A stretch of DNA of 41,528 nt, taken from positions 1 to 41,528 of IMG/VR virus record IMGVR_UViG_3300009164_000147; one strand, 5' to 3'. Position 1 is the stretch's first letter; the number at the start of each line of letters is the position of its first letter. The translations under genes and the position numbers were made by a program. The DNA is from a virus. The notes under the pieces were generated by a model. That model had not been told where the DNA came from. It did not search any database and saw only the letters and a program-made list of their open reading frames with translations. Below, in pieces: positions 2,178 through 13,101 of this stretch.

Positions 2178-2340
2178 GGTTACCTCCCCAACCGCCACCT
2201 TTGAAATGAATAGAAGGCGGTGTGAATACCTTCGTTAAAGTTACGTTGCACTTGTCACACTTAGGGAACTGATCCCCATCCATGATACGCATCTCTACTA
2301 CGCTATCGCATAGCGTACATTTGAAATCGAATGTTGCCAT
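2164..2340 (-). CDS. FmdB-like zinc-ribbon protein
   Basis: 58 residues. The layout is that of the FmdB/CxxC regulatory-like zinc ribbon family: MATFDFKC start, a CTLC pair at 8-11, a second CDKC pair at 28-31, and the closing PPSIHFKGGGWGG signature seen at the end of bacterial FmdB-type proteins. The family is thought to bind zinc and possibly nucleic acid, but its role is not settled. The start shares the TAATG overlap with the sigma-like gene upstream. Confidence 0.82.
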   Translation of the reverse strand: MATFDFKCTLCDSVVEMRIMDGDQFPKCDKCNVTLTKVFTPPSIHFKGGGWGGNHAQG

Positions 2341-2978
2341 TAGTACGGTGTTGCTCCTCCCAGTTTATCGGCTATGTCTTTAATACCTTTAGCAATCAGT
2401 TGCTCAACACGTTGAGGTGAGATCTCCCAAGCTAGTGCTATCTCAGCCAACGGTTGGTCGTTAACAAACCGACAGGTAAGAATGCCCTGCATTCTTGCGT
2501 CAAGCTTCTTCATTGCTGCGTCTACATCAGCGATCATTGCTGCTAAGTTGTTACCCTCGTTGGCTAGTCGCTTGACCTTGACACCATGTACATCTGGATC
2601 GAATACTTGGTTAGCCAAGTATGCCTCATCAGTACCAGCAACTTTGATTAGGCTCTCGATTAACTCGAGGCGATAGAAGTATTCATCGCCGAGCTCATAC
2701 CCTAAAGCTTTAGCTTTCTCCTTACGCGCATACCGTTCGCCAGCCCTACGTATGAATGTATGAAACGCTTTGTATCCCTGCTTCTTCTCAATAGGATCTT
2801 CACGAATAAGATAATCATTAACCTTATCCTTGCGCTTCCATGCGTACTCATTCATTGCTTGCTTAACATCTTCAAGCTCGATGAATCGGTAGTAACGTTT
2901 AGATAAATGCCAAGCAATGCCCGATGTTATCTCGTTGATCTCTTGCCATACTGGGTGGTCTCGTGTTAGCTCAGGCAT
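2340..2978 (-). CDS. sigma-70-like / HTH transcription factor
   Basis: 212 residues from the ATG at 2978, which overlaps the endonuclease VII stop by 8 bases; the frame is open further upstream but inside that gene. An N-terminal helical block (ITSGIAWHLSKRYYRF with IELEDVKQAMNEYAWK) resembles sigma region 2. The C-terminal block (QPLAEIALAWEISPQRVEQL, about 177-197) is a clear region-4-like helix-turn-helix. It could redirect host RNA polymerase to phage late promoters or act as an ordinary HTH regulator. The linker between the two blocks is longer than in ECF sigma factors. Its place at the end of the early operon fits an early-to-late switch, but this is inference. Confidence 0.62.
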   Translation of the reverse strand: MPELTRDHPVWQEINEITSGIAWHLSKRYYRFIELEDVKQAMNEYAWKRKDKVNDYLIREDPIEKKQGYKAFHTFIRRAGERYARKEKAKALGYELGDEYFYRLELIESLIKVAGTDEAYLANQVFDPDVHGVKVKRLANEGNNLAAMIADVDAAMKKLDARMQGILTCRFVNDQPLAEIALAWEISPQRVEQLIAKGIKDIADKLGGATPY

Positions 2979-3258
2979 ACTGCCTGACCAAGTACGTATG
3001 TGCAGCAAGTAGCAGGTCGGGATCATCGCCAAGTAAACCCAGTGCTCTGTTGTGATTAGAGCAGAGCAACCCACGCACCTTACCAGTGCGGTGATCGTGA
3101 TCTATATCCAGCGCACGAACTGATGGGCTAGCACCACAGATGTAGCAACCACCACCTTGTGACTCAAGCATGTCTTCGTAATCCTCTACCGTAATTCCAT
3201 AAGAACGTATGCGTGATCCACGTTGTTCTTCGTAAGTTTTATTTCTGTTGCGTGGCAT
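2971..3258 (-). CDS. recombination endonuclease VII-like HNH/His-Me finger nuclease
   Basis: 95 residues from the ATG at 3258 (GGAAGA ribosome-binding site); an earlier in-frame start at 3276 is less likely. The family pattern is YGITVEDYEDMLESQGGGC, then CYIC (38-41), DIDHDHRTGKVRGLLC (52-66) and SNHNRALG. The DHDH at 53-56 gives the catalytic and metal-binding residues. The usual fourth zinc cysteine of the LLCxxCN motif is a histidine here (H69). T4 gp49-type enzymes resolve branched DNA before packaging; a nicking role is also possible. The window also has a separate Hjc-type resolvase. Confidence 0.85.
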   Translation of the reverse strand: MPRNRNKTYEEQRGSRIRSYGITVEDYEDMLESQGGGCYICGASPSVRALDIDHDHRTGKVRGLLCSNHNRALGLLGDDPDLLLAAHTYLVRQYA

Positions 3259-3556
3259 ACTTCTTCCAGATACCACGCTCTACCATCAACGCAATGATTG
3301 CGTAGTTGGCTATGTCAATGAAGCTATCTTCGAGAGCTTCATTGTTTGGTTCAATGGAGTTGTATATAAGATTCTTTAGTCGCTCTAACTTATCGGACAT
3401 ACGAACCATCAACCCATTGGTCGCACCACCAGGTGCGTTCCAAATGTTAAGTGGACCGTAATCGATTTGCTTTAAGACCAAGATAGATAGAAGCTCATCA
3501 TAAATATCCTGAGCATCTTCTTGGAAGTTATCGATGGTTAGTTTGTTCGTCGCCAA
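3239..3556 (-). CDS. all-alpha NTP-pyrophosphatase-like / DUF1599 family protein
   Basis: 105 residues. The KQIDYGP motif near residue 29, the MVRMSDKLERLKNLI helix and the EDSFIDIANYAIIALM helix match the phage 'nucleotide modification associated domain 1' (DUF1599) family, related to MazG-type all-alpha NTP pyrophosphatases. It probably acts on nucleotides in the cytoplasm. The start is a TTG at 3556 with AAAGG about 8 bases upstream; no better ATG exists ahead of the conserved part. It overlaps the endonuclease VII gene by 20 bases. Confidence 0.7.
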   Translation of the reverse strand: MATNKLTIDNFQEDAQDIYDELLSILVLKQIDYGPLNIWNAPGGATNGLMVRMSDKLERLKNLIYNSIEPNNEALEDSFIDIANYAIIALMVERGIWKKYATQQK

Positions 3557-3567
3557 CGGAGCACCTT

Positions 3568-4215
3568 TCAGTTGTTAATTGCATTAACTAAATCAGCTAA
3601 TGCTTGCGCTCCTTGGTTAACAATTATACTATTGACATCGCTATCTGGAGGTAACGACACGCGGACAGCTTGAGGTATTGCATCCTGCAATCGACGTGCT
3701 AGTTCCTGCCCTGGGTTAGAGCCATCCTCTTTAGCATCGTTGTCAGTACAGATTACGACAGTACCAATGCCATCAAAACACCTACTAAAATAAGGCTTCC
3801 AAGCATTAACACCAGCAACGGCAACAGCAGGGAACCCAGCAAGAGTCGCACTAATCGCATCTATCTCTCCTTCTACTACCAACACTTGGCTAACCGCATT
3901 AAGTATTGCGCTGACGTTATATAGGTGGTGCTTCTGACCAGTAGGTATCATGTACTTAGGATCTCCGCCATCAATGCGACGGAACTTAAACCCAACTACG
4001 CCAGCCTCTGTTATGTAGGGGATAGATAGGTGATGTCTAAGTCTGTCCTCGTGACCAGGTGCTACCTCTGCCACATAACCTAGTAAAAATTTTTCGGCTC
4101 CATCAAGGATTCCACGCTGTGTTAGGTAAGCCTCTGCTGGTGAACCAGCAAGGCTGTCATGGTACTGGTGTGCTGCTTTAGTCCAGAGATCTATGAGCTT
4201 GGGGTTAGTCTTCAT
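3568..4215 (-). CDS. DNA primase, TOPRIM catalytic part (split primase)
   Basis: 215 residues. The TOPRIM fold is shown by VLVVEGEIDAI (catalytic E near residue 115) and the later VVICTDNDAK acidic motif that binds magnesium. The N-terminal 100 residues resemble the RNA-polymerase subdomain of DnaG (YLTQRGI, then SIPYITEAGVVGFKFRRIDG). There is no zinc-binding domain in this protein: that domain is encoded separately at 4739-5065, with the Ntn-hydrolase gene between the two. It should make RNA primers together with the zinc-finger protein and the helicase. The start ATG overlaps the upstream stop (ATGA) and has a GGAG site. Confidence 0.87.
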   Translation of the reverse strand: MKTNPKLIDLWTKAAHQYHDSLAGSPAEAYLTQRGILDGAEKFLLGYVAEVAPGHEDRLRHHLSIPYITEAGVVGFKFRRIDGGDPKYMIPTGQKHHLYNVSAILNAVSQVLVVEGEIDAISATLAGFPAVAVAGVNAWKPYFSRCFDGIGTVVICTDNDAKEDGSNPGQELARRLQDAIPQAVRVSLPPDSDVNSIIVNQGAQALADLVNAINN

Positions 4216-4742
4216 ACTTTCTCCTGCCTGTGTGTAATGAATGGAGGTGCAGTATACACATCATTGCGAGCAGCAATCTGCATTGCTTGCTTCCATGTCG
4301 CACCACCTGCTAGTGCGCCGAGTGCGAAGCTTGACCCTGACCCTGCGCCATACAGCCCATCATCACGCAGGTAGACAGAGTAAGAGTCATCTACTTGGTA
4401 GATCGTGCCGTTGATTGCAAGTATGAATTCAAATCCAGAGTCAGCATCATCCTTGTCTGGAACCCAACCTGATTCTTTAATACATTCTCTAATGCTTGGA
4501 GCTACAGTTGTAATCATGAAGTGATACATGTCTTTAATGTTAACTGGTATAGCTGGTGGTTTCCATACATGTTGTATCACATCACATGGTTGTACATCTC
4601 CAGCACCTGCAACCAACCACTTACCCCGCTTGCTAATCTTAGTAACAATCGGATGTGAGTATGGTCTACCACCTGCAGTGGTACGTGAATCGGCTGCAAG
4701 AATGCAGCCGTTGTCTTGTTGGATACCAATGATAGTTGTCAT
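4212..4742 (-). CDS. proteasome beta-subunit-like Ntn hydrolase (HslV/20S-type peptidase)
   Basis: 176 residues starting MTTIIGIQQDNG, from the ATG at 4742 that overlaps the previous stop (ATGA). After removal of Met the first residue is Thr, as in active proteasome beta subunits. Counting that Thr as 1, AADSRTT places Asp17 and Arg19 exactly, and VTKIS gives the catalytic Lys (34, one insertion from the canonical 33). A GSGSSFALGA motif and ARNDVYT near the end match the Ser129/Asp166 regions. There is no propeptide. It is probably an N-terminal-nucleophile peptidase assembling into rings; HslV, 20S beta and Anbu-like origins are all possible. It lies between the two primase parts. Confidence 0.82.
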   Translation of the reverse strand: MTTIIGIQQDNGCILAADSRTTAGGRPYSHPIVTKISKRGKWLVAGAGDVQPCDVIQHVWKPPAIPVNIKDMYHFMITTVAPSIRECIKESGWVPDKDDADSGFEFILAINGTIYQVDDSYSVYLRDDGLYGAGSGSSFALGALAGGATWKQAMQIAARNDVYTAPPFITHRQEKV

Positions 4743-5065
4743 CGAGACCTCAACCTTGGCGGTGTCCACCGCCCACTCTTCTTACTGCGACGATTGTGGA
4801 CAATCGGAGTAGAAGATTCCTTGCCAATATTTTTTTCAGCCCATGACCGAGCCTCTGGGTATGCTAGATGTTCACGAGCCATGATGATCTGTATACCAGC
4901 ACCACCACTGCTACATGCATAGCATACCCAGACGCCCTTCTCTGAGTTCACCGAGGCAGACTTACGAGAGTCATCGTGTACTGGACACAGGATTGACTTC
5001 TCACCTTGCGGTAAGTCCAATCCGTAATGATTGAAGACTGCTTCAAGAAACTCAGGCTGGTTCAC
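4739..5065 (-). CDS. DNA primase zinc-binding domain protein (split primase)
   Basis: 108 residues. This is the CHC2-type zinc ribbon of DnaG primases on its own: CPVH at 27-30 and CYAC at 48-51, separated by a basic strand (SRKSASVNSEKGVWV), then GGAGIQIIM and a helix typical of the family. The C-terminal 25 residues are basic and disordered. It should recognise template trinucleotides for the TOPRIM protein at 3568-4215. The start is GTG at 5065 with AAGGAA upstream, directly abutting the transglycosylase stop. Confidence 0.85.
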   Translation of the reverse strand: MNQPEFLEAVFNHYGLDLPQGEKSILCPVHDDSRKSASVNSEKGVWVCYACSSGGAGIQIIMAREHLAYPEARSWAEKNIGKESSTPIVHNRRSKKSGRWTPPRLRSR

Positions 5066-5481: not shown

Positions 5482-5835
5482 TTACCTATGTCCATTGTAA
5501 CCTGCCTGTTTTAGCAGATCAGCCCAGAGCCATGCGGGCATTACCGCGTATGACTCTGAGACATTTGTAGTGCCACGCTTTTTTATTAGCACCACGCCAG
5601 TCTCAGCATCAGCATGAGTCATCTCATCCGATAGCTCTTGAAGATAGCCACTGAGAGTGATCTTCTTTTCGTTCTTACATTCTATTACTACGCCGTCGAT
5701 ACCGTCAATGTCTCCGACATCGTCGTGCCGACCAGCACCATACGCACGTTCAGCGCATGGAAATCCATAGGAGACTAACCACTTAACTACATCACGTTCG
5801 TACTGTGAGCCTTTGCGTTTGCTTGGTGTTGTCAT
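5482..5835 (-). CDS. Holliday-junction resolvase (Hjc-like, PD-(D/E)XK)
   Basis: 117 residues. The pattern is GSQYERDVVKWL (Glu13), AYGAGRHDDVGDIDGI (Asp42), GVVIECKN (Glu52, Lys54) and a later VVLIKKRGT strand, as in archaeal/phage Hjc-type resolvases. It cuts four-way junctions in the cytoplasm before packaging and may overlap in function with endonuclease VII (2971-3258). The start ATG overlaps the WhiB stop (ATGA). Confidence 0.85.
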   Translation of the reverse strand: MTTPSKRKGSQYERDVVKWLVSYGFPCAERAYGAGRHDDVGDIDGIDGVVIECKNEKKITLSGYLQELSDEMTHADAETGVVLIKKRGTTNVSESYAVMPAWLWADLLKQAGYNGHR

Positions 5836-6101
5836 AAATAGTCACTCACTAATATCTGTTCGAGGGTAATGTTTCTTTTTGATCTAAGCTTTAATCTTTC
5901 TCGCGGTGTTAATCCACCCCATAAACCATGTGCCTCATGTAGTACCGCCCACTCTAAACATTCTTTTCTTATCGGACATCCAGAACAAATTTTTTTACCA
6001 AGTTCATAAACGGAAACATCTCTTTCGTTCTCTTCATTAGTGAAGAAGAATTCAACTCCGACTTCCTTGCACCGAGCTTGACTGAAGTCTGGATAATTCA
6101 T
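5832..6101 (-). CDS. WhiB-family iron-sulfur transcriptional regulator
   Basis: 89 residues from the ATG at 6101, preceded by GGAGG 9 bases upstream. It has the four WhiB cysteines (C11, C39, C42, C48 in CSGCPIRKEC), which hold a [4Fe-4S] cluster, then the GLWGGLTPRERL turn and a basic C-terminal stretch (RSKRNITL) that could touch DNA. WhiB proteins occur only in actinobacteria and their phages and act on the principal sigma factor, so this is the strongest host marker in the window. It may redirect host transcription early in infection. It overlaps the upstream gene by 50 bases. Confidence 0.93.
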   Translation of the reverse strand: MNYPDFSQARCKEVGVEFFFTNEENERDVSVYELGKKICSGCPIRKECLEWAVLHEAHGLWGGLTPRERLKLRSKRNITLEQILVSDYL

Positions 6102-6603
6102 TGATGAGATCCTCCATTGGTAGTAGTTGATTAGCATCCATCACTAATCGAATGCCGTAACCATAGTCATGCTTGTAATGATTTGCAAGAAATAATTCTC
6201 GTGTTACCCAACCAACTATAGTAAACTTACTATCTACATGTGGTATCTGTTTGTCACCAAAGAATTGAACCAGCACTGCATAGTCCGATACAAATAACTC
6301 TGGTGCATTAAAGATTAATTTGTCTAGCGTCGACGTCTTGACTTGTATATTTTTTCCCAGTGATGTAGATAGGTCGTGTCCATTATCGCCACTCGGCGAA
6401 ATCGATCTGTCCACTTCAAGCCCAAGTCCCTTGCCACACGCCACCTCACCCAGCTGACCCATAAGGTTAACCGAATACGACGAATTGTTTTTGTCAAACT
6501 TCTTGTCAACAACTTCATATTGTTTCTTGTTCTCTCTAACTCGGTGGACAAAGCGAAGCGCGTCCATGATTTCATCTTCGGTTAATTCAATATCTATTGC
6601 CAT
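6052..6603 (-). CDS. PD-(D/E)XK superfamily nuclease-like protein
   Basis: 183 residues. MGQLGEVACGKGLGLEV (Glu53), SGDNGHDLST (Asp77) and KNIQVKTST (Gln87-Lys89) give the spaced E...D...QxK signature of the PD-(D/E)XK fold. The rest is beta-rich with no second domain. Likely roles are a restriction-like or structure-specific endonuclease; the exact family is not recognised. The 3' end overlaps WhiB by 50 bases and the start overlaps the helicase stop by 10. Confidence 0.65.
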   Translation of the reverse strand: MAIDIELTEDEIMDALRFVHRVRENKKQYEVVDKKFDKNNSSYSVNLMGQLGEVACGKGLGLEVDRSISPSGDNGHDLSTSLGKNIQVKTSTLDKLIFNAPELFVSDYAVLVQFFGDKQIPHVDSKFTIVGWVTRELFLANHYKHDYGYGIRLVMDANQLLPMEDLINELSRLQSSSVQGSRS

Positions 6604-7427
6604 TGGCGCATTGTTCTTGCTCGTTGTAATTCAACAGGTGAGTTATATAAAGTCATGTGGCTTGCCTCCGCTGACAGAGAGATGTAAGTCTCTGCTGTTG
6701 GGTCAGCCTTACCATGTCGGTTCTTCACTACAGCAACGCGGTAAGCGTTTGCCTGTCCGTCTAGTGCAACACTAAGAACCAACTCTGGTAACGCTGCAAC
6801 CTTACCCATCAATGCTTTACGCGGAGCAGGAAAGTTAGGCTTGGACATCTTCTCGTTCTCGGATACGTGATGCAGAACGATAAATGCTGACTCGTATTCA
6901 CGAGCCATGTAATGGAACGCTGACATTGCATCACGCAACGCAGTCCATTCATTGTCGCTTGTTGAAGCGACATTCATTAAGTTGTCTACAAAGATCGCTT
7001 GTGGAGCAGAGCCGTGCAGTTCTATCCAAGCTTCTATTTCTTCTTCGATATCATCTAACGAAGGCGACGGATCAAAGTTGAATCGAACATGCCCTGCACC
7101 ATCAGCGAGTGCGTCTTCCAAAAGGACTGACGCCTCAGAGTCCATCATCTTCTCAACTTGTGCTACTTCTTTCTCCATAAGGATTGCCCCTGCACGAGTG
7201 GCGATTGTTCGGGAGTCAGAGTCAGCTGAGAAGTAGAGCGAAGGAACTTTAGATTGAATTGCGTACCACAGTGCAAGTAGTGTCTTGCCACCACCAGGTT
7301 GTGCTGCTATCAAATGCAATTGCGCTTGACGAAACACCACCTGTGATTGAGTAAGTTGAGGCAAGATCTCTGGGAGCATATGCCCAACAGGAGATTCAAC
7401 CCCCACTACCTGCAACAGTGAACGCAT
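6594..7427 (-). CDS. RecA-fold ATPase, DnaB-like replicative helicase
   Basis: 277 residues. Walker A is AAQPGGGKT (about 41-49), Walker B is AIFVDNL (144-150), and IVLHHVSE near 183-190 matches the sensor/H3 region of DnaB/RepA-type hexameric helicases. There is no DnaB N-terminal primase-interaction domain, so it corresponds to the helicase C-domain only, like short phage helicases. It probably unwinds the fork with the split primase. RadA-like or other RecA-fold roles remain possible. Its start follows the previous stop by two bases. Confidence 0.75.
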   Translation of the reverse strand: MRSLLQVVGVESPVGHMLPEILPQLTQSQVVFRQAQLHLIAAQPGGGKTLLALWYAIQSKVPSLYFSADSDSRTIATRAGAILMEKEVAQVEKMMDSEASVLLEDALADGAGHVRFNFDPSPSLDDIEEEIEAWIELHGSAPQAIFVDNLMNVASTSDNEWTALRDAMSAFHYMAREYESAFIVLHHVSENEKMSKPNFPAPRKALMGKVAALPELVLSVALDGQANAYRVAVVKNRHGKADPTAETYISLSAEASHMTLYNSPVELQRARTMRQWQ

Positions 7428-12142: not shown

Positions 12143-12358
12143 TTATTTCTCCTTAGTTTTTCTACCCCAAGATATTTTATCCCAGATTCTTTCATGCCAG
12201 TAATAGATACCGACCTTTACTATTGTTTCCCAAAAAGCAATAAGTGCTGAGAGAGTTCCTTCACCAGTAATAACAAAGACAACAGCAAAGGAACTTAACG
12301 TTCCAAAGATTCTGTAGCTGAGTGACTTGGTAAATGAACGAGCCTTAGTTACTTTCAA
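12143..12358 (-). CDS. DUF2061 membrane protein
   Basis: 71 residues. It matches the DUF2061 pattern: an RSFTKSLSYRIFGTLSSF start, a membrane helix, TGEGTLSALIAFWETIVKVG and the ending YYWHERIWDKISWGR. It is a two-helix inner-membrane protein of unknown function. From memory, DUF2061 is sometimes found next to or fused with APS-kinase-type proteins; here the CysC-like gene is directly upstream. The start is TTG sharing TTGA with that gene's stop. Confidence 0.8.
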   Translation of the reverse strand: MKVTKARSFTKSLSYRIFGTLSSFAVVFVITGEGTLSALIAFWETIVKVGIYYWHERIWDKISWGRKTKEK

Positions 12359-13101
12359 ATTCCCAGTTCTTTTCTTTTCTGTGTAGCAGAAATAGATTGA
12401 AGTTCTTGGGAAAGTTCTACCTGTTCAATCTTGTATCCAACATCACGTCCATAAACTATGTTCGTAATGTTTGGAAACTTCACAACGAAAGATGACCGTT
12501 CTTCGGCTCTGATCCGATTGGCAACTTCAGAATAAGAGAGAGGGTCTTTCTCGCTAGTGCCTTGAGTATCTCTAACACCAATAACAACCTGTGCCGTACG
12601 CTCATGTGCCTTCTCCAGTAGTGCGTGATGACCCTCATGCCATGGTTGATAACGACCAAGCAGTAAGGTGGTAGGTGCTTTCCAATCGTGTAGATTAGAT
12701 TGAGCAATAATTAAATCTGTTTGAGCTTCGCTATTGTAAGATACAAAGCGGTAGTCAAACTCAGTAGGTGCTTCCCATAACTTGTTGGTATCTTCGAAGC
12801 GACCTTCGGCAATAGTGTCCATCCAGATACAGATGTCAGGCTTACCAAATGCTGCACGTGTAGCAGCGGTAGGGCAGATGAAATCAATAACAACATCTAG
12901 ACCTTGGCTAGATAGCATCTTTGCCATCTCGCCCATACGGCGAGCATGTTCGACCCTATCCTCTGGTGTGAAACCAAGATCGGAGTTGATCGTTGCTCGT
13001 ACGTAGTCAGCGTTTAGATGTACCGCATTGATGCGGTCAGCTAAAGAAGTGGCAAGCGTTGTCTTGCCACTGCCAGGTAGACCAATGATTTGAATAATCA
13101 C
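12355..13101 (-). CDS. APS-kinase-like (CysC) domain fused to nucleotidyltransferase
   Basis: 248 residues, GTG start at 13101. Residues 1-130: Walker A GLPGSGKTT (7-15), LNADYVRATINSDLGFTPED and RVEHARRMGEMAKML, the APS-kinase pattern that makes PAPS from APS and ATP. Residues 143-248: LLGRYQPWHEGH (HxGH at 155-158) and ISATQKR (237-243), the two signatures of the NMNAT/cytidylyltransferase fold. The second domain is too short for a normal ATP sulfurylase, though the domain order is that of PAPS synthetases. Substrates are unproven; nicotinamide or sugar nucleotides are alternatives. It is coupled to the sulfotransferase-like gene by a one-base overlap. Confidence 0.78.
   Translation of the reverse strand: MIIQIIGLPGSGKTTLATSLADRINAVHLNADYVRATINSDLGFTPEDRVEHARRMGEMAKMLSSQGLDVVIDFICPTAATRAAFGKPDICIWMDTIAEGRFEDTNKLWEAPTEFDYRFVSYNSEAQTDLIIAQSNLHDWKAPTTLLLGRYQPWHEGHHALLEKAHERTAQVVIGVRDTQGTSEKDPLSYSEVANRIRAEERSSFVVKFPNITNIVYGRDVGYKIEQVELSQELQSISATQKRKELGI

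Follow-up and report, generated by a model that had tools for sequence, protein, structure and literature searches.

A proteasome-like Ntn hydrolase gene between the two genes of a DnaG-type primase in a clade of freshwater actinophages

The primase DnaG of bacteria is composed of zinc-binding, RNA-polymerase, and helicase-binding domains, whereas the primase encoded by the viral DNA described here is found as two polypeptides instead, one carrying the zinc-binding (CHC2) part and the other the TOPRIM/RNA-polymerase part. The gene of a proteasome-like N-terminal nucleophile (Ntn) hydrolase lies between the two primase genes. This locus raises the question of how a peptidase gene came to be located between the parts of a replication enzyme, and whether the peptidase serves that enzyme; the initial annotation regarded the arrangement as an insertion into, or a cut of, an ancestral primase gene. 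The DNA analysed (the window) is a viral record 41,528 bases long, and the fetched relatives are ~39-42 kb in length; the window is therefore probably near complete.

All three genes are on the minus strand, and the open reading frames and their coordinates are those given in the initial annotation, with separate CHC2 and TOPRIM genes and a 176-residue Ntn protein encoded between them. The CHC2 zinc-binding subunit (4739..5065, 108 aa, GTG start) matches PF01807 (E = 9e-11) and PHROG 360 'DNA primase' (1e-23). The HslV/BPH-like Ntn hydrolase (4212..4742, 176 aa, ATG start at 4742) matches PF00227 (1e-4) and PHROG 1040 'peptidase HslV family' (1e-28), and the TOPRIM/RNA-polymerase-domain subunit (3568..4215, 215 aa) matches PF13362/PF13155 (~1e-8) and PHROG 849/47 'DNA primase' (~1e-28); both assignments are also supported by the predicted folds. 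The ATGA stop/start overlaps reported for both joints are indeed present, at 4739..4742 (CHC2 to Ntn) and 4212..4215 (Ntn to TOPRIM). Among 169 loci with Ntn between the primase genes (between loci), the CHC2-to-Ntn offset is -4 in 87, and the remaining loci have other offsets. A longer Ntn ORF of 185 aa (GTG at 4769) is not the gene, because the 'MTT' at 4742 is conserved and places the catalytic Thr directly after Met. A Shine-Dalgarno-like AGGAGA (4220..4225, minus strand) is located 4 nt before the TOPRIM ATG, indicating independent initiation; of the 169 between loci, 168 have 4 nt or more of SD-like sequence at this start.

As had been proposed from the sequence, the two parts complement each other as pieces of a single DnaG-type primase and are arranged in the domain order of an intact primase. 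The zinc ligands C27, H30, C48, and C51 of CHC2 are present in 68 of 68 unique sequences of the clade formed by the between loci. In TOPRIM, the EGEID motif (E115, E117, D119; 3859..3873) is invariant in alignment A5, and this motif, the DND motif (D158, D160; 3736..3744), and the third acidic site D193 (3637..3639), all on the minus strand, are found in 76 of 76 clade sequences (scored as E115, D119, D158, D160, and D193). The AlphaFold2 model of TOPRIM, built from input rows of the window and fetched viral contigs, has a pLDDT of 95, with the DnaG RNA-polymerase domain as best Foldseek match (E about 1e-11); profile searches agree with the Foldseek assignments of both TOPRIM and Ntn. Bacterial DnaG has the same zinc ligands and TOPRIM residues and the same fold of the RNA-polymerase domain; its C-terminal helicase-binding domain is not found here, the TOPRIM protein ending after the RNA-polymerase core at 215 aa. 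PADLOC matches of the primase parts to DnaG-like domains of RT defence systems reflect shared domains only and were set aside.

Each of the two domains, zinc-binding and TOPRIM, is a conserved polypeptide of its own in which no key residue is missing. The gene order CHC2-Ntn-TOPRIM is retained in 96 distinct loci, and all three genes are under purifying selection, with dN/dS (omega) of 0.03-0.24 across the three in same-clade comparisons where computable (0.07-0.24 for CHC2 and 0.04-0.17 for TOPRIM; dS was saturated in the comparison of Ntn of locus L213). Loss of key residues throughout one part, which would speak against two working parts, was looked for, and the key residues of all three proteins proved to be 100% conserved in the between clade. 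The order retained in 96 loci, the low omega values, and the complete conservation of key residues together argue that the three-gene order is not a matter of chance. With purifying selection and complete zinc and catalytic residues, both primase parts look functional from their sequences, in line with the initial annotation. The CHC2 and TOPRIM proteins would meet in trans, the zinc subunit probably reading the template for the TOPRIM subunit. A passage in PMC6163395, citing Corn et al. 2005, describes crosstalk in trans between DnaG primase subunits, and on that account a two-polypeptide primase is mechanistically plausible. The likely partner of the primase is a DnaB-like helicase encoded on the same strand and in the same gene cluster (6594..7427, minus strand, 277 aa; PHROG 243, E = 3e-76). 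This helicase consists of the RecA domain alone, so that helicase and primase are both without the usual interaction domains.

The Ntn protein has T2, D18, K35, G48, and S135 invariant in 77 of 77 clade sequences. Its AlphaFold2 model (pLDDT 92) contains helices at residues 50-58, 72-90, 137-145, and 150-160, and the nearest Foldseek matches are BPH, Anbu, and HslV. With HslV and BPH (group I proteasome homologs) it has in common the fold, the Thr after Met, the equivalents of D17/K33/G47, and the lack of a propeptide; in profile alignment to both families, T2, D18, K35, and G48 fall at the equivalent positions, at about 20% identity to the solved members. The protein is probably an active N-terminal-threonine peptidase, made without a propeptide. 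No HslU-type AAA+ unfoldase was recognised among the scanned proteins of the 41.5-kb window, and the host may supply such a partner. Two other proteasome homologs, PPH and AAH, have been linked to phages (Fuchs, Alva and Lupas, PMC8665760) and are, like the window Ntn, proteasome homologs in tailed phages. Assignment to PPH was rejected, PPH being about 140 aa without helix H2 (PMC8665760) as against 176 aa and a predicted H2 in Ntn. A connectase ligating the primase halves was likewise rejected: the model has neither the two-helix S3-S4 insertion nor any helix before residue 50. No Ntn relatives were found by a scan of the genome collection, and none came from host genomes.

The nearest cultured relatives, found by helicase search, are the Planktophila phages E7 and F5 (LanE43-AprE7/AprF5, OX376640/1; PMC10202952), which are related freshwater actinophages with partial synteny to the window, and both carry an Ntn gene. 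The window also encodes a WhiB protein (5832-6098), a sigma factor (2340-3074), and a glycosyltransferase (1413-2198), all on the minus strand; this set matches that reported in phages of 'Ca. Nanopelagicales' (PMC10202952), of which E7 and F5 are the two isolates, and the window has the set in common with these two. Also on the minus strand are a DUF1599 'nucleotide modification associated' protein directly after TOPRIM (3239-3556), which is conserved in the clade, and an apparent bifunctional protein with an APS-kinase/polynucleotide-kinase-like domain followed by a cytidylyltransferase-like domain (12355-13101).

Elsewhere in the phage family, the Ntn gene occupies other positions. It directly follows the portal gene in Planktophila phage F5 (L145, 3201-5534), in L061 (1763-4086), and in L216 (2587-4934); it is found beside lysin genes in L063 and L065, and near purA and dUTPase genes in L059. 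The position directly after the portal gene is a usual place for head-maturation proteases. The Ntn might therefore be the head-maturation (prohead) protease of the phage family, its place beside the primase being accidental; the portal-adjacent copies favour this, as does the failure to recognise any other protease in the window. The window Ntn, however, sits among replication genes, and the window encodes a capsid protein of the Phage_capsid_3 family and, separately, a scaffold-like protein; we regard a prohead protease as rather unlikely, though deserving consideration.

To place the locus among its relatives, sequences were fetched from IMG/VR by Ntn and by TOPRIM and combined with annotated isolates, and an HMM census yielded 264 distinct CHC2-TOPRIM segments, which are mutually related, so that the counts are not independent. 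CHC2 and TOPRIM are on separate ORFs in all 264, unlike a DnaG-type primase in its single-polypeptide form. In 168 of them the two genes overlap with no Ntn between and TOPRIM is always in the +1 frame of CHC2 (for example L002, L053, L142, L144, L264, and L371), the overlap being 80-310 nt long and 140-159 nt in 128 of the 168. In the other 96 the genes are separated, every time by the Ntn gene; separation without Ntn was found in 0 of the 264. An intact primase at this site, for which the relatives were compared, was likewise encountered in 0 of the 264 distinct loci, in a census seeded with split TOPRIM and short peptide patterns that distant fused relatives could escape. The parts are thus always separate yet always linked, contrary to what would be expected had they been unlinked genes throughout.

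The overlap class takes in phages of Mycobacterium, Gordonia, Streptomyces, and Cutibacterium as well as Planktophila phage E7 (L144), while in F5 the Ntn gene lies far from the primase. As judged from these sequences, the usual state in actinophages is a pair of overlapping genes in which TOPRIM is read in the +1 frame relative to CHC2. Pairs in cluster A mycobacteriophages and other actinophages (e.g. Zimmer 57/56, HINdeR 53/52, Kumquat 58/57, Ponzi 30/29) resemble the window in having CHC2 and TOPRIM on separate polypeptides in identical order and in frequently having genes for a DnaB-like helicase and a Holliday junction resolvase nearby; their TOPRIM is about 30-43% identical to that of the window. 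In these pairs, unlike in the window, no gene separates the two, and their +1-frame overlap amounts to about 134-180 nt. The window retains the order of a CHC2-only gene followed by a TOPRIM-only gene (PHROG 360 and 849; alignments), but the +1-frame overlap and direct adjacency have been replaced by Ntn between the genes and stops in the unused frames. For cluster A phages the two-gene overlap has been published, in a single genome note (PMC8032465); a search of the literature for split primases in phages gave no results. In TOPRIM trees the between state forms one clade (SH-aLRT 100) nested inside the overlap lineages; the clade is freshwater, and the overlap is resolved in 96 of its 96 distinct loci. 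Since 168 of 168 relatives without the insert already have two overlapping genes, the split is old and ordinary.

The constant +1 relation of the frames is compatible with a +1 ribosomal frameshift in the overlap lineages that would make a fused primase, the ancestral product, later lost by the between clade. Such a frameshift appears improbable: TOPRIM starts have SD-like sites more often than the control does, fusion would need a shift well upstream of the CHC2 stop, which is located about 50 codons inside TOPRIM, and in the between clade fusion is impossible and yet both parts remain under selection.

It could also be supposed that Ntn acts on the primase, trimming, removing, or joining its halves, and that its position reflects this role. 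The gene is kept in 96 of 96 between loci, lies close downstream of TOPRIM (<=700 nt) in 47 more, including sister lineages, and is ATGA-coupled to both primase genes in the window; connectase, a proteasome relative, is a protein ligase (PMC8665760). We nevertheless consider the idea quite doubtful, as the model is without a connectase-type helical insertion, the gene is also found at the portal, lysin, and purA/dUTPase positions given above, and it is absent within the fetched stretch in 85 of 168 overlap-class loci. The Ntn family is present in 16 of 23 whole records; it was not found in the other seven of the 23 searched, which comprise Streptomyces and Mycobacterium phages and five others, two of the seven being isolate phages with full genomes. 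Because Ntn is widespread and positionally mobile in the phage family, a primase-specific role is unlikely, and Ntn more probably has a general phage function than one in primase maturation. A version in which Ntn limits, activates, or removes one primase subunit, thereby timing phage DNA replication and for that reason returning repeatedly to the locus, is equally hard to credit; if true, a phage replication enzyme would be governed by its own operon-encoded threonine protease.

That Ntn inserted into an intact primase gene and so split it in this lineage, as the intact-primase domain order and the presence of both domains in the PHROG 47 profile might suggest, is highly improbable, since the primase already consists of two overlapping genes in all 168 relatives that have no Ntn between them, TOPRIM is provided with a conserved start and an SD-like site of its own, the two-gene split is published for cluster A, and every overlap would have to be secondary, which the TOPRIM trees make unlikely. 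The part of the original proposal that stands is that a rearrangement put a foreign gene at the joint. We therefore favour, with good though not full confidence, a two-subunit DnaG-type primase with an unrelated passenger Ntn gene, in which the split is old and the overlap was later resolved by duplication.

Apparent traces of such a duplication are found at both ends of the Ntn gene. In overlap-class locus L264, the CHC2 frame ends in SRYVPPRLRRG before its stop and the TOPRIM frame reads DTFLLGSV; in another overlap-class register the corresponding peptides are SGRYIPARYSD, also followed by the stop, and ATFLLGTV. The window CHC2 tail, SGRWTPPRLRSR followed by the stop, is in register with the overlap-class tails, but a stop codon interrupts its +1 frame; the window TOPRIM keeps its whole N-terminus, and there the other frame is likewise interrupted. 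In all 165 between loci, both copies have stops in the frame that they do not use. As each copy keeps one frame, the overlap segment exists twice and was very probably duplicated during the rearrangement. Resolution of the overlap was very probably a single event in one clade of freshwater actinophages, in which about 150 nt of overlap DNA was duplicated, the upstream copy then keeping only the CHC2 tail frame and the downstream copy only the TOPRIM N-terminus. Because Ntn is often directly or close downstream of TOPRIM in sister lineages, duplication of TOPRIM across Ntn is the simplest path: from the order CHC2/TOPRIM-Ntn, TOPRIM would have been duplicated across Ntn and the body of the first TOPRIM lost. 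A plain insertion of Ntn with a duplicated flank is also possible, because the slot in L213 holds extra ORFs and a divergent Ntn; the Ntn tree does not resolve a single clean descent of the between Ntn from a downstream Ntn.

Between CHC2 and TOPRIM of L213 (6531-7738), the most basal clade member, there are about five extra small ORFs besides the divergent Ntn, and the L085 group has one additional ORF there; the slot accepts further genes and in this respect looks like a cargo site. An ORF family of ~68 aa occurs directly after Ntn at two genome positions (L085:3883-4089; L112, between Ntn and TOPRIM; L228:536-727). It was rejected as an obligate Ntn partner: it follows Ntn in 56 locus hits, many of which overlap, and is found without a nearby Ntn in L244, L268, and L292. 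One contig of 82,688 bases (IMGVR_UViG_3300027754_000069; L017, L048) contains two different copies of the primase-Ntn locus, with Ntn 95% and 89% identical to that of the window; the assembly may have joined two phage genomes here.

Under the preferred reading, a two-subunit primase, the CHC2 tail is what remains of the stretch that once overlapped the TOPRIM N-terminus. Residues 99-106 of the window CHC2 (4748..4771, minus strand) form the motif RWTPPRLR, a new candidate docking peptide. In the clade the motif RWxPPRLR is invariant apart from x, with R, W, P, P, and R in 68 of 68 sequences; its codons vary synonymously except that of Trp, and the linker directly before it varies freely. In the between clade the tail is overlapped only by the four-base ATGA and the Ntn ribosome-binding region. 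An invariant motif with synonymous changes beside a variable linker, and hardly any overlap, argues for selection on the tail at the protein level. The motif is present in 51 of 51 between tails and 49 of 119 overlap tails, compared with about 0.3 after shuffling. In the overlap class the motif arises when the codons of TOPRIM T-F-x-L-G are read out of frame; it is partly forced by the TOPRIM frame there, and the function of the tail is argued from the between clade only. From its sequence pattern, RWxPPRLR on a variable basic linker is likely a docking element, binding either TOPRIM or the DnaB-like helicase.

Actinophage genomes with annotated overlapping 'two primase' genes number well over a thousand, and the between clade is a natural test for them: fusion by frameshifting is impossible in this clade, which indicates that such pairs can work as two separate polypeptides and that the halves of the primase need not be one protein. 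The locus is also a rare clean case in which an overlapping gene pair was resolved by duplication, each copy keeping one frame, and it singles out the short invariant CHC2 tail as the likely contact holding the split primase together. The gene of the proteasome-type peptidase proves to be common in freshwater actinophages and to change its position among them, and in cultured relatives, the Planktophila phages, the peptidase can be studied.
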